NCBI GenBank assembly: GCA_013824485.1
Contig: PNNY01000002.1
Coordinates: 1-57,150 of the forward strand
Source of the DNA: Sideroxydans sp.
GTDB lineage: Bacteria; Pseudomonadota; Gammaproteobacteria; Burkholderiales; Gallionellaceae
Length of the DNA stretch: 57,150 nucleotides
Reading direction: 5' to 3'
Part shown: in pieces, positions 4,450-56,094 of the stretch
How positions within the stretch are numbered: the stretch's first letter is position 1
Layout: each line of letters opens with the position of its first letter
Program-made: the position numbers and the translations under genes
Notes under the pieces: generated by a model
Seen by the model: the letters and a program-made list of their open reading frames with translations, nothing else
What the model was told of the DNA's origin: nothing
Databases searched by the model: none

Positions 4450-4671
4450 ATGCCTGACCGTAAGCAGATCATCTGGCGTTCTCCCACTGGCGATGTCATC
4501 GCTTGCGTGGAGAAGAACAAAGTCTTGCAAGAGAACCTCATCGAGATACGCCAAGTCTTCCAAGACGCTTTGGAAGATGCTGTGCTAATGGGGTGCGACG
4601 AGAAGCAGGTGCGCGCTGTGTTCATCGAGCTGATGAACAACCTTGAGAGTTCGTATCCACCACAGGAATGA
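4450..4671 (+). CDS. Small conserved hypothetical protein (73 aa), directly abutting dcd
   Basis: ATG immediately follows the dcd stop (TAAATG); MPDRKQIIWRSPTGDVIACVEKNKVLQENLIEI. Confidence 0.7.
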   Translation: MPDRKQIIWRSPTGDVIACVEKNKVLQENLIEIRQVFQDALEDAVLMGCDEKQVRAVFIELMNNLESSYPPQE

Positions 4672-4751
4672 TCATTCCTTGTAACAAACCACCGCTAGAC
4701 TGCGAAGATTCGCACCATTCTTAATTTGTAATATCCCTTAGGGAGCCGCAC

Positions 4752-4892
4752 ATGAAATTCAATTTTAGTTACGGCGTCACATTGACCTTCGGTCAATATG
4801 AGCCTGCACTGAAATCAAACTTCATCTGTGCTTCGTTGCAGAGTGCTATTGTTCAACTCAATGTTTCCTCTTTTTTTAGGATGCCGCTATGA
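4752..4892 (+). CDS. Putative 46-aa leader/uORF overlapping the decarboxylase start
   Basis: ATGAAATTCAATTTTAGT... = MKFNFSYGVTLTFGQYEPALKSNFICASLQSAIVQLNVSSFFRMPL*; stop TGA overlaps ATG of next gene (CTATGAAG); preceded by a GGGAG SD. Confidence 0.5.
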   Translation: MKFNFSYGVTLTFGQYEPALKSNFICASLQSAIVQLNVSSFFRMPL

Positions 4893-7135
4893 AGTTTAAT
4901 TTTCCCATCATCATCATCGACGAAGACTACCGCTCGGAGAATGCCAGTGGTCACGGCATCCGCGATCTGGCGGACGCGCTGGAGAAAGAAGGTATCGAGG
5001 TGGTCGGTATGACCAGCTACGGTGATCTGACTTCGTTCGCGCAACAACAGAGCCGCGCATCCGCTTTCGTTTTGTCCATCGACGATGAAGAGTTTGGTGC
5101 AGGAAGTGATGAAGAGACAGAGGTGGCATTGCGTACCTTGCGCGCTTTCGTGGAAGAGATCCGCTACAAGAACTCAGACATCCCCATTTATCTGTACGGT
5201 GAGACGCGCACTTCGCGCCACATCCCGAACGACATCCTGCGCGAACTGCATGGCTTCATCCACATGCATGAGGACACGCCTGAATTCGTGGCGCGTCACA
5301 TCATCCGTGAGGCCAAGTCCTACATGGATTCACTCGCGCCGCCTTTCTTCCGTGCGTTGGTGGATTACGCGCAAGACGGTTCGTATTCTTGGCACTGTCC
5401 TGGTCACTCAGGCGGCGTGGCGTTCCTGAAGTCGCCTGTCGGTCGTATGTTCCACCAGTTCTTCGGCGAGAACATGTTGCGTGCCGACGTGTGTAACGCG
5501 GTGGATGAGTTGGGGCAATTGCTCGACCACACGGGCCCTGTCGCTGCGTCCGAGCGCAACGCGGCGCGCATCTTCAATGCGGACCACCTGTACTTCGTCA
5601 CCAACGGTACGTCCACTTCGAACAAGATCGTGTGGCACTCAACCGTTGCGCCAGACGACATCGTGGTGGTCGATCGCAACTGTCACAAGTCCATCCTGCA
5701 CGCCATCATGATGACTGGCGCTGTCCCGGTCTTCTTGCGCCCCACACGCAATAATTTCGGCATCATCGGTCCTATCCCTTTGAGTGAATTCCAACCAGAA
5801 GAGATCCAGCGCAAGATCGACGCGAATCCCTTCATCAAAGACAAGTCACGCAAGCCGCGCGTGCTGACAATCACCCAAAGTACTTACGACGGCGTGTTGT
5901 ACAACGTAGAGACACTCAAGAACTTGCTCGACGGCAAGATCGATACCTTGCACTTCGATGAGGCATGGTTGCCGCATGCTGCCTTCCATGATTTTTACAA
6001 AGACATGCACGCTATAGGCAAAGACCGTCCTCGCGCTAAAGAGTCGATGATCTTCGCCACACAATCCACTCACAAATTGTTGGCTGGATTGTCGCAAGCG
6101 TCACAGATTTTGGTGCGTGACAGCGAGACGCGCAAACTCGACCGCGACTGCTTCAACGAAGCCTATCTGATGCACACGTCCACCTCGCCGCAATACGCCA
6201 TCATCGCCTCGTGCGACGTGGCTGCAGCGATGATGGAGCCGCCTGGCGGCACCGCGCTGGTGGAGGAAAGCATCGCAGAAGCACTCGATTTCCGCCGCGC
6301 CATGCGCAAGGTGGATGAGGAGTGGGGCGCAGATTGGTGGTTCAAGGTTTGGGGTCCTGACTACCTGTCGGAAGACGGGATGGCCGACCGCGAGGATTGG
6401 GTGTTACGTGCGGATGATCGTTGGCACGGCTTCGGCAATCTGGCCGAAGGTTTCAACATGCTCGATCCGATCAAGGCCACGGTCGTTACGCCCGGATTGG
6501 ACGTGGATGGCGACTTCGCCGACAGCGGCATCCCAGCCAGCATCGTCACCAAATATCTGTCCGAGCATGGCGTGGTGGTGGAGAAGTGCGGCCTGTATTC
6601 CTTCTTCATCATGTTCACCATCGGTATCACCAAGGGCCGTTGGAACAGCATGGTGACCGAGCTGCAACAGTTCAAGGACGACTACGACAAGAACCAGCCG
6701 CTGTGGCGTGTCCTGCCAGAGTTCATCGCCAAGAACCCTCGCTACGAGAAGATCGGCCTGAGGGACTTGTGCGACCAGATCCACGGCATCTACAAAGCTA
6801 ACGATGTGGCGAAGCTGACCACCGAGATGTATCTGTCCGACATGATCCCCGCGATGAAGCCATCTGATGCGTTCGCCAAGATGGCGCATGGCGAGATCGA
6901 GCGTGTCGCGATCGACGATCTGGAAGGACGCGTCACCGCTGTGCTGCTGACACCTTATCCGCCCGGTATTCCCTTGCTCATCCCAGGTGAACGCTTCAAC
7001 AAGACCATCATGGATTACCTCAAATTCGCGCGTGACTTCAACAAGAAGTTCCCCGGTTTCGAGACCGATATCCACGGACTGGTTGCTGAGAATCGCGATG
7101 GGCAACGTTTTTATTATGTGGACTGCGTGAAGTAA
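4889..7135 (+). CDS. Orn/Lys/Arg decarboxylase (PLP-dependent, fold III)
   Basis: 748 aa; MKFNFPIIIIDEDYRSENASGHGIRDLADALEKEG; ATQSTHKLLAGLSQASQI PLP-lysine motif. Confidence 0.93.
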   Translation: MKFNFPIIIIDEDYRSENASGHGIRDLADALEKEGIEVVGMTSYGDLTSFAQQQSRASAFVLSIDDEEFGAGSDEETEVALRTLRAFVEEIRYKNSDIPIYLYGETRTSRHIPNDILRELHGFIHMHEDTPEFVARHIIREAKSYMDSLAPPFFRALVDYAQDGSYSWHCPGHSGGVAFLKSPVGRMFHQFFGENMLRADVCNAVDELGQLLDHTGPVAASERNAARIFNADHLYFVTNGTSTSNKIVWHSTVAPDDIVVVDRNCHKSILHAIMMTGAVPVFLRPTRNNFGIIGPIPLSEFQPEEIQRKIDANPFIKDKSRKPRVLTITQSTYDGVLYNVETLKNLLDGKIDTLHFDEAWLPHAAFHDFYKDMHAIGKDRPRAKESMIFATQSTHKLLAGLSQASQILVRDSETRKLDRDCFNEAYLMHTSTSPQYAIIASCDVAAAMMEPPGGTALVEESIAEALDFRRAMRKVDEEWGADWWFKVWGPDYLSEDGMADREDWVLRADDRWHGFGNLAEGFNMLDPIKATVVTPGLDVDGDFADSGIPASIVTKYLSEHGVVVEKCGLYSFFIMFTIGITKGRWNSMVTELQQFKDDYDKNQPLWRVLPEFIAKNPRYEKIGLRDLCDQIHGIYKANDVAKLTTEMYLSDMIPAMKPSDAFAKMAHGEIERVAIDDLEGRVTAVLLTPYPPGIPLLIPGERFNKTIMDYLKFARDFNKKFPGFETDIHGLVAENRDGQRFYYVDCVK

Positions 7136-53308: not shown

Positions 53309-56094
53309 ACCATCACCTGTACTACTTGGCCATTGCGGTTGAATGCTTGCTGGAGAACGGGCGCAAAGCTATCTGCGATCTTTCGGCGAGTCTCATCGGT
53401 GATGCTATTTGGCTCCAGTGCTTGTAGGGTGAACTCGATGGTCACGTTGGGCACAGCCGCAGCTTGAGATTGGGATGAGGCTCCGCCCGACATCGATACC
53501 GGGGATGCCGTATTCGGCATTTGGCTGGGGATACCACCCGCAGCACCAACGCTGGCAGCAGTTGAAGCGCCTCCGCCGAACTGAGCATTGTTGATTTGAG
53601 ACAGGATGGCGGCAGTTTCTGCCGTCGCGATGATAGCCATTGCGGCACCGCCGACAGGGCCACCCCATACGGAACCATTTTTATAGGCGTCCATGATCGC
53701 TTGACCACCACTAACAGCAGCATTCGATTTAGCCGCCAACTTATTAAGTTCGAACATTGCGCGCGACTTGGTGGCACCCACTTGAGTCATACGTTCCATC
53801 TGTGACGAAACCATACCGACCTGCTGATTCCAACTCATTGCATCAAACTGCTGCTTAGCAGTCATGTACTTTTGTGCGATCAGTAATTTGCGCTGCTCAT
53901 GCTGCTCAGTCAGCGCCTCCATGCGCTGGCCTTGCGTGATGGCGATCTGCTCGGTCATCTGGCCGCGCGCAGTCAGGGTCTCATTCTCGCGTGCCATCGC
54001 CTCGACCTGCATTTGGTATTTAGCTTCTTCCGATGCAATTGCGATCGCACGCTCAGCCTCGACACGTGTATCGCCTTGCAGGCGGGGATCAGCCAGTTGT
54101 ACTTCGGCTTTCACTGCCTCCAACCCCGCACGGTCGTTAGATAGCTTCTCATCCAGCTTGGCTTGCTCTTCCGCAACTTTTAGCAGCCCCTCGCGGGATT
54201 TCTTTTCGGCATCGATACTCTCGATCTGAGTCGCCGCCGCCTGAGCACTGGCAATCTGAGCAGTCGTCGCTCCATTCATAGCCAACTCGTAGACCTTGAT
54301 CTGCGCAGCAGATACACCCATCGACTCCATCTGCTTCTTGAATGCATCGCCCTCCAAACCATCGACGGCAGTTTGATTCTTGTTTTCAGTAGGCGTGGAC
54401 TTGTCTTTGTATTTGCCGTTGATCTTGGCCAAGCCGACACGGTATTCCTCGGCCACCTTCAACATCTCAGCTTGGCCCATGCGCTGTGCATCTACTTTCT
54501 TCAGGTATTCCGCATTCAGGTCGGCGATATCAGATTCGCGTTGCTGCGCTTTGGTCTGCGTCATCTTCGACCATGCGACACTGTCACCTTGGGCTTGCTT
54601 GGACTGGTTCTGCTCACGGATGGCAATCGTCTCGATGGCGGATTTCATCGCCCATGCGATATCGTCTTGCGCCTTGATCTGCGCAGTGCTGGCTCCGGTC
54701 GCTTTCAGGCGATCACGCTCGGCAATGGCTTCTTTGCGCTTGGTTTCGAGTACTTCTTTTTCCGCTAACCCCAATTCCATCGCGCTCTGGCGTGCCTTGG
54801 CCACTGCATCGACGGCTTGGTTAGCCGCATCCTTGGCAGAGTTACCCCAGTACGCCCAAGCCATCGCCCCTGCACCAAGCGCCAAGGTGATCGCCCCGAT
54901 TGGCCCGCCCACCAACGCCAACGCGCCACGAGCGATGCCTGTGCTGGCGGCTGATGCCGTTTGCGCAGCTGCCAAGCGCGTTGCGGCAGCGGCATGTGCC
55001 GTCTCGGCCACCGTCACTTGCGCGTGCGCTGTGCCCAGTGCATTGTTGGCACGGGCGGCAACCAACGCTGCGTTGGCTTGCGCCATATCTGCTTGTGCCA
55101 CTTCCAAGATCGCAATGCGCTCCGCCACCAACGCAGCCGACTTGGCACGCATTCCCGCCACTGCATCCATAGCCATCGTGCCCAGACGCAACGACCCATA
55201 AGCGGTCGCGGCCACGGTCACGCCAGTGAGTGCAGCAGCGACGGCGCGCGTATTTGAGATGACCGCATCCGTGCCATCGACGACGAACTGGATAGGAGTC
55301 TGCTGACCGATCTCTTGACGCAAAGCAGTGAAAGAGTTGCTCAGGCGATTGAGCGAGGCTTGCAGGCTATCGACTGGGCCATTGCCACCGCTCATCTGAT
55401 TGAGTGCGACGGCAAACTTAGGCAGGAAGTCTTCCGACATCAACTTGCCAGAGTTGAGCAGGTTGACGAACTCAGCGGTAGTCACGCCCAGTGCCTTAGC
55501 ACCTGCGGTCGTAGCGATAGGGAGTCGCTCACCGAGTTGTTGGCGGAATTCTTCAGCCGAGACCACACCCTTGCTCATCATCTGCGAGAGTGCAAGGAAC
55601 ACACCTTGATTCTGTTCGACGGTGAGGCTCATGCGAGCCGATACATTGCTGACCGACTCAAACACTGCACGGGCTTTTTCACCCTCTAGCGAGGTGCCAC
55701 GTGAGGCAGCGATGAAGCTGGCGTAGGCATCTGCGGTCGAGGTTATTTCCAGACCGAGCTTGTTCGACATCTGGCGAACGTACTCATATTCGGCAGCGGC
55801 GGCAGAGGCCGTCCCTGTCGCTACCGTCATCGTTGCGTTGAACTTATCCTGCGCAACTTGCGCATCGATCACGGCACGGCCAAAGCTGGCGATCTGAGTG
55901 ACCCCAAGGTACGCCACCGCATACTGGCCTACCGTCTTGATACCTTGTGAAAGTTTGTCAGCGCTGGCCGAGGCTTTGTCAGCTTCGTTTTTGATGCCAC
56001 TCAAACCATCTTGAGCGGCCTTAGCGTCAGCGACGACCGTTTGGCCGCCGCTGGCTTTAAGGATGATGCCGAATTCTACGTTGTTGCCGGACAT
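53305..56094 (-). CDS. Phage tail tape measure protein
   Basis: 929 aa; tape-measure N-terminal domain AVAYLGVTQIASFGRAVIDAQVAQDKFNATMTVATGTASAAAAEYEYVRQMSNKLGLEITSTADAYASFIAASRGTSLEG; long Ala/Gln helical core; C-terminal VTIEFTLQALEP. Confidence 0.95.
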   Translation of the reverse strand: MSGNNVEFGIILKASGGQTVVADAKAAQDGLSGIKNEADKASASADKLSQGIKTVGQYAVAYLGVTQIASFGRAVIDAQVAQDKFNATMTVATGTASAAAAEYEYVRQMSNKLGLEITSTADAYASFIAASRGTSLEGEKARAVFESVSNVSARMSLTVEQNQGVFLALSQMMSKGVVSAEEFRQQLGERLPIATTAGAKALGVTTAEFVNLLNSGKLMSEDFLPKFAVALNQMSGGNGPVDSLQASLNRLSNSFTALRQEIGQQTPIQFVVDGTDAVISNTRAVAAALTGVTVAATAYGSLRLGTMAMDAVAGMRAKSAALVAERIAILEVAQADMAQANAALVAARANNALGTAHAQVTVAETAHAAAATRLAAAQTASAASTGIARGALALVGGPIGAITLALGAGAMAWAYWGNSAKDAANQAVDAVAKARQSAMELGLAEKEVLETKRKEAIAERDRLKATGASTAQIKAQDDIAWAMKSAIETIAIREQNQSKQAQGDSVAWSKMTQTKAQQRESDIADLNAEYLKKVDAQRMGQAEMLKVAEEYRVGLAKINGKYKDKSTPTENKNQTAVDGLEGDAFKKQMESMGVSAAQIKVYELAMNGATTAQIASAQAAATQIESIDAEKKSREGLLKVAEEQAKLDEKLSNDRAGLEAVKAEVQLADPRLQGDTRVEAERAIAIASEEAKYQMQVEAMARENETLTARGQMTEQIAITQGQRMEALTEQHEQRKLLIAQKYMTAKQQFDAMSWNQQVGMVSSQMERMTQVGATKSRAMFELNKLAAKSNAAVSGGQAIMDAYKNGSVWGGPVGGAAMAIIATAETAAILSQINNAQFGGGASTAASVGAAGGIPSQMPNTASPVSMSGGASSQSQAAAVPNVTIEFTLQALEPNSITDETRRKIADSFAPVLQQAFNRNGQVVQVMV

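Follow-up and report, generated by a model that had tools for sequence, protein, structure and literature searches.

Only a few families of palindromic repeats are known that insert in frame into coding sequences, namely RPE, ERIC, Correia and YPAL, and a further group of short repeats, the REP elements, is mobilised by RAYT/Y1 transposases. In the case of the RPEs, hairpins of 105-146 bp have been found in frame in 19 reading frames of Rickettsia (PMC2229807). Insertions of a different kind, those of IS1549/IS1634, are flanked by direct repeats of 8-514 bp, for which no model is known (PMC2266710). With respect to short reading frames ahead of decarboxylase genes, expression of speF in Salmonella requires translation of the upstream ORF (uORF) orf34, and the system has regulatory arginine codons (PMC6386406).

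In the stretch of Sideroxydans sp. DNA analysed here (57,150 nucleotides, referred to as the window), the gene of a 748-aa Orn/Lys/Arg decarboxylase, which by sequence is nearest to lysine/arginine decarboxylases (4889-7135, forward strand), is preceded on the same strand by a uORF of 46 codons (4752-4892), the ATG of which lies at 4752 and the TGA of which (4890-4892) overlaps the ATG of the decarboxylase (4889-4891) as ATGA. The uORF opens with a copy of the gene start (4738-4766, forward strand), consisting of the SD AGGGAG (4740-4745), the ATG and the codons for MKFNF, and the same arrangement recurs at the start of the enzyme itself (4876-4903, forward strand; TTAGGA.., ATG at 4889, MKFNF). 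Aligned with each other, the two copies, TTAGGGAGCCGCAC-ATGAAATTCAATTTT (4738-4766) and TTAGGATGCCGC-TATGAAGTTTAATTTT (4876-4903), reach a local score of 26, the maximum of 5000 shuffles being 23, and among the 55 long-ORF starts of the window this is the best self-match (runner-up 19). The flank duplication recognisable in the window amounts to 29 bp. It is the upstream copy that resembles the native start in relatives without the insert, where this start is the only one, and the downstream copy carries an SD of its own, which in the window is weaker than the upstream one. Coordinates and shuffle test thus agree with the sequence-only reading that had described the repeated start and the stop codon on the true ATG; its start position of 4752 is also correct, whereas the end given there, 4905, lies inside the CDS, as the uORF ends at 4892.

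What had been passed over in that reading is the palindromic nature of the sequence between the two copies. Directly behind Phe5 and in the frame of the uORF lies a hairpin element of 54 nt (4763-4816, forward strand; model R1, 79.2 bits). The spacer that connects it to the CDS start (4817-4888, forward strand) is unconserved in sequence but retains the uORF frame, and it begins with AAACTTCAT (4817-4825, forward strand), which is antisense to ATGAAGTTT at the CDS start (4889-4897) and may be a start-sequestering partner. A search of the leader against Rfam gave no match at E<=5, and no intrinsic terminator was found in the decarboxylase leader. Further upstream, between dcd and the decarboxylase, there is a 73-aa ORF (4450-4671 of the window) that is recognisable in many relatives and had no match in a Pfam search.

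This arrangement is probably, though by no means certainly, explained by an RPE/MITE-like insertion combined with a duplication of the gene start, in which the frame was kept and enzyme output became coupled to translation of the uORF. A short non-autonomous palindromic repeat would have entered the decarboxylase gene behind its fifth codon, and the 5' flank of the gene, comprising SD, ATG and MKFNF, would be present a second time downstream of the repeat. The old start would then open a uORF composed of MKFNF, the in-frame hairpin and the spacer, and the new start would begin an intact enzyme. Ribosomes would load at the strong upstream SD, translate hairpin and spacer, halt at the UGA and re-initiate at the overlapping AUG, by which enzyme output would be tied to uORF translation. 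Sensing of a ligand has no part in this proposal, and as the downstream start is equipped with a separate SD, coupling is not strictly needed.

The hairpin occurs as a dispersed repeat. Its 22 aligned copies form one common hairpin with 96.4% of the cells paired, and four pairs have changed on both sides, with columns 12-41 swapping A-U for G-C (11 versus 10 sequences). The element is 46-54 nt long; copies at unrelated sites have in common AGTTNCGAC, a variable inner stem, GTCTNCACTGAAACT and often a following NCGTTTT. Of 120 Gallionellaceae genomes, 92 contain the element according to a covariance model, which at E<=1e-7 also has matches in 27 of the genomes sampled from the order beyond this family; such a hairpin model may catch other hairpins, and weak matches were therefore checked by reading the sequence. 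The genome to which the window belongs has ten matches, one of which is merely the window copy read in antisense, and thus nine distinct loci. Tandem arrays exist as well, including an exact head-to-tail pair of 46 bp. No match to the exact pattern was obtained in IMG/VR, and hence there is no sign of viral carriage. The literature searched contained no description of such a repeat in Gallionella, Rfam was also without a match, and the family is seemingly an undescribed in-frame palindromic repeat, which these iron-oxidising bacteria, the Gallionellaceae, share with a part of the order around them.

Some related forms were seen alongside. The 46-bp form can be nested in a larger repeat of the type cacctctaaaaatccaaa..TTTT-element-gtcgcaatactgcgttgctcac.. 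(L184, L187, L188, L189, L191, L195, L196); this larger unit is possibly a longer MITE, or else the one from which the family descends. A sister form with the ends TTGTGG..CCGCAAGG occurs in tandem arrays with constant periods of 89, 123 and 84 nt (L081, L083, L084, L260, L263, L268). A RAYT/Y1 transposase was considered as the mobiliser and rejected, as there is no Y1 match in the genome of the window (90% complete), and at 12 Y1 loci in relatives no credible element was found.

At other genes, the element is found in two situations. In purL (three genomes) and uup it is inserted in frame with 54 nt, corresponding to 18 codons, between Phe codons (SSDITPASGHESSLKLRF and variants), and in uup a stretch of 78 aa spans 60 profile positions. 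In ksgA (L078, L266 and, in the genome of the window, L086) and in a fmt-like gene of other families (L282, L286), a second ATG and N-terminus lie behind the element. These in-frame copies and duplicated starts support the RPE-like origin of the insertion at the decarboxylase. The two start copies of the fmt-like gene in L286 are near-identical across about 50 bp, and the insertion event is therefore recent; at the L281 copy, which is located between pheS and pheT, the flank is repeated over about 35 bp. In both cases the hairpin is directly followed by bases in antisense orientation to the flank (12 nt in L286, 10 nt in L281), and in L286 these bases continue via TGCTGA into a direct copy of the UTR, a junction that looks like template switching. 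The insertion process might itself copy the 5' flank of its target, the hairpin first being extended by a short antisense stretch and SD, ATG and N-terminus then being copied directly, a mechanism that is rather doubtful; if true, the element would do no harm where it enters the start of an essential gene and would give rise to coupled uORFs time and again, representing a self-repairing mobile element. Since many copies have only a short flank duplication or none, a long duplication is not a fixed rule.

The ksgA start in the genome of the window (L086, contig C13, about 22675) reads MSGHKAKKQF, followed by the hairpin and then by an in-frame second MNHKAKKHFGQNFL, and because the N-terminus is repeated in frame around the hairpin, the true start of this gene is uncertain. 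In L266 (G108:C2, about 54240-54370), two elements separate three serial ksgA-like starts. In glyQ the element is present in frame at the N-terminus, in one to three copies (KPTF-GSDIT..HESSPK..KPTF-QQII; L087 of the genome of the window, L264 and L279).

At the decarboxylase, 22 of the 30 loci sampled first have a single start without insert, and eight, the window counted, carry the insert. A contig scan gave 17 loci, nearly all of them from Gallionellaceae or Nitrosomonadales; one of these, L054, has a different setting, with pheS and pheT on its two sides. Conservation of the leader in close relatives, on which the sequence-only reading had staked its proposal, is not found: insert and uORF are absent from the closest relatives (L002-L005), the proteins of which are 96-99% identical to that of the window, and the uORF recurs patchily in other species and genera. 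The 5' regions of the decarboxylase gene were read in 110 genomes, and on a gene tree of 98 genomes the presence of the insert, with remnants counted, needs 22 changes, and with intact carriers only, strongly supported branches still force at least 17. Leader identity and gene identity are barely correlated (r 0.13), and gain, loss and exchange are inseparable with these data. That the leader was born by duplication, as had been proposed, is supported by the finding that the duplicated starts at the decarboxylase flank copies of one hairpin element, and that in L153 the hairpin is lost and both starts are retained. The leaders of L133 and L157 consist of two stacked units, each with a hairpin; stacking at this start has occurred repeatedly, L055 and L154 being further cases.

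A pattern as patchy as this, with at least those 17 forced changes and with the closest relatives lacking the insert, is also what would be left by a neutral insertion scar, in which the flank duplication kept the gene intact, the uORF has no role, and duplicates are met at gene starts for no other reason than that insertions elsewhere kill the gene. The second start with its own SD and the clean in-frame inserts in purL and uup, which look neutral, also fit such a scar, and it has to be regarded as a possible, if less probable, explanation. What it accounts for poorly is the constraint on frame and start codons. The uORF ends as ATGA on the CDS ATG in 15 of 30 carriers, compared to 3.3 expected from shuffled spacers in random phase, an estimate that ignores kinship, and for 19 of the 30 the distance from element to ATG is divisible by three (p 7e-4, likewise ignoring kinship), both in excess of chance. 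In codons 2-5, the differences between the upstream and downstream starts comprise 45 synonymous and 13 nonsynonymous bases, whereas free drift of the upstream copy would by our own reckoning give about 75% nonsynonymous differences, and the upstream start codons are thus conserved at the amino-acid level. Horizontal exchange was considered as the cause of these synonymous differences in view of the weak correlation of leader and gene identity; a by-eye comparison with insert-free sister genomes gave mixed results.

The codon-level conservation for which an alignment of relatives had been suggested applies to the duplicated start codons, but not to the hairpin codons, which differ from their consensus by 10 synonymous and 75 nonsynonymous changes and are thus kept as a structure and not as a peptide, nor to the spacer peptide past the element, which is unconserved. 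As the start codons are conserved and the peptide of hairpin and spacer is not, it is probably the translation of the uORF that matters and not a sensing peptide. In L055, two uORFs are chained via ATGA overlaps, and in L153 a 12-codon uORF of the coupled type persists after hairpin loss. Judged from these patterns in the sequences, the uORF is real and probably translated and coupled to the enzyme. Against the reading as a coupled insertion stand the early stops in the uORF of about 10 of the 30 carriers, and the closest relatives, which do without the insert.

An analogy to speFL-speF had been drawn from the sequence, and position and length indeed resemble the orf34-speF leader of Salmonella (PMC6386406). 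A dedicated leader of the orf34/speFL kind, with its nascent peptide or runs of codons responding to Arg, Lys, Orn or polyamines, is nevertheless very improbable, as there is no conserved peptide past the element and no amino-acid constraint inside it, its presence is patchy, and the same element lies ahead of unrelated genes. The best solved relative of this Orn/Lys/Arg decarboxylase by sequence is 6q6i (5e-244, residues 3-748), deposited as biodegradative arginine decarboxylase, and ornithine decarboxylases score far below lysine/arginine decarboxylases, so that the analogy to speF is weaker than had been held. In a translational attenuator, the CDS start would be masked by the antisense sequence behind the hairpin for as long as the uORF is not translated. 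Among the 30 carriers, 8 show a complementarity of at least 11 of 12 nt to their own CDS start and 2 to the upstream start, and own antisense/start pairs outscore swapped pairs (p 5e-5), but folding shows no general closure of the CDS start relative to shuffled spacers, R-type carriers have no antisense match, and the antisense could be a mere by-product of the way the insertion formed (compare L286 and L281); attenuation is therefore highly improbable and a lead only. Ribosome bypassing from the upstream to the downstream TTT, with the upstream MKFNF as the real N-terminus of the enzyme, would suit the matched TTT codons that flank the hairpin and the conserved upstream amino acids, but it is barely credible, since the downstream copy, with an SD and an ATG of its own, requires no bypass, and the gap length is highly variable.

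The RPE/MITE-like insertion with duplicated start thus points to a repeatedly seen way in which the coding starts of essential genes can take up a tiny repeat without being destroyed, and such an entry leaves behind a probably translated and coupled upstream ORF. The element seemingly adds an undescribed family to RPE, ERIC, Correia and YPAL, and for annotation it has the consequence that in these bacteria the start of a gene may be duplicated or misplaced, as with ksgA, glyQ and the decarboxylase.

Among the known systems, orf34-speF has in common with the window a short uORF ahead of a basic amino-acid decarboxylase, the translation of which may be needed; unlike there, the uORF of the window has no conserved sensing peptide, is born from a repeat and has its TGA on the ATG of an enzyme nearest to lysine/arginine decarboxylases, and orf34-speF is a similar layout and not a relative. 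With REP elements the repeat shares the short imperfect palindrome with bulge and mismatch and the occasional tandem arrangement, but no Y1 gene was found in its own genome, and it is located in coding frames. Some of its insertions may resemble those of IS1549/IS1634 in having long and variable direct repeats (about 50 bp in L286, about 35 bp in L281), whereas these are full transposons and the element is a geneless hairpin, many copies of which lack a long repeat. It comes closest to the RPEs and in-frame MITEs, which are likewise small dispersed palindromes with a stable hairpin and an open frame, inside conserved genes and intergenic: the element is dispersed at unrelated loci, is an imperfect palindrome that folds stably, and lies in frame in conserved genes. 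In contrast to the RPEs, it has only 46-54 nt, is hosted by Gallionellaceae and other families of the order, and is often associated with duplication of the gene start and with a coupled uORF, and the likeness is one of kind only.
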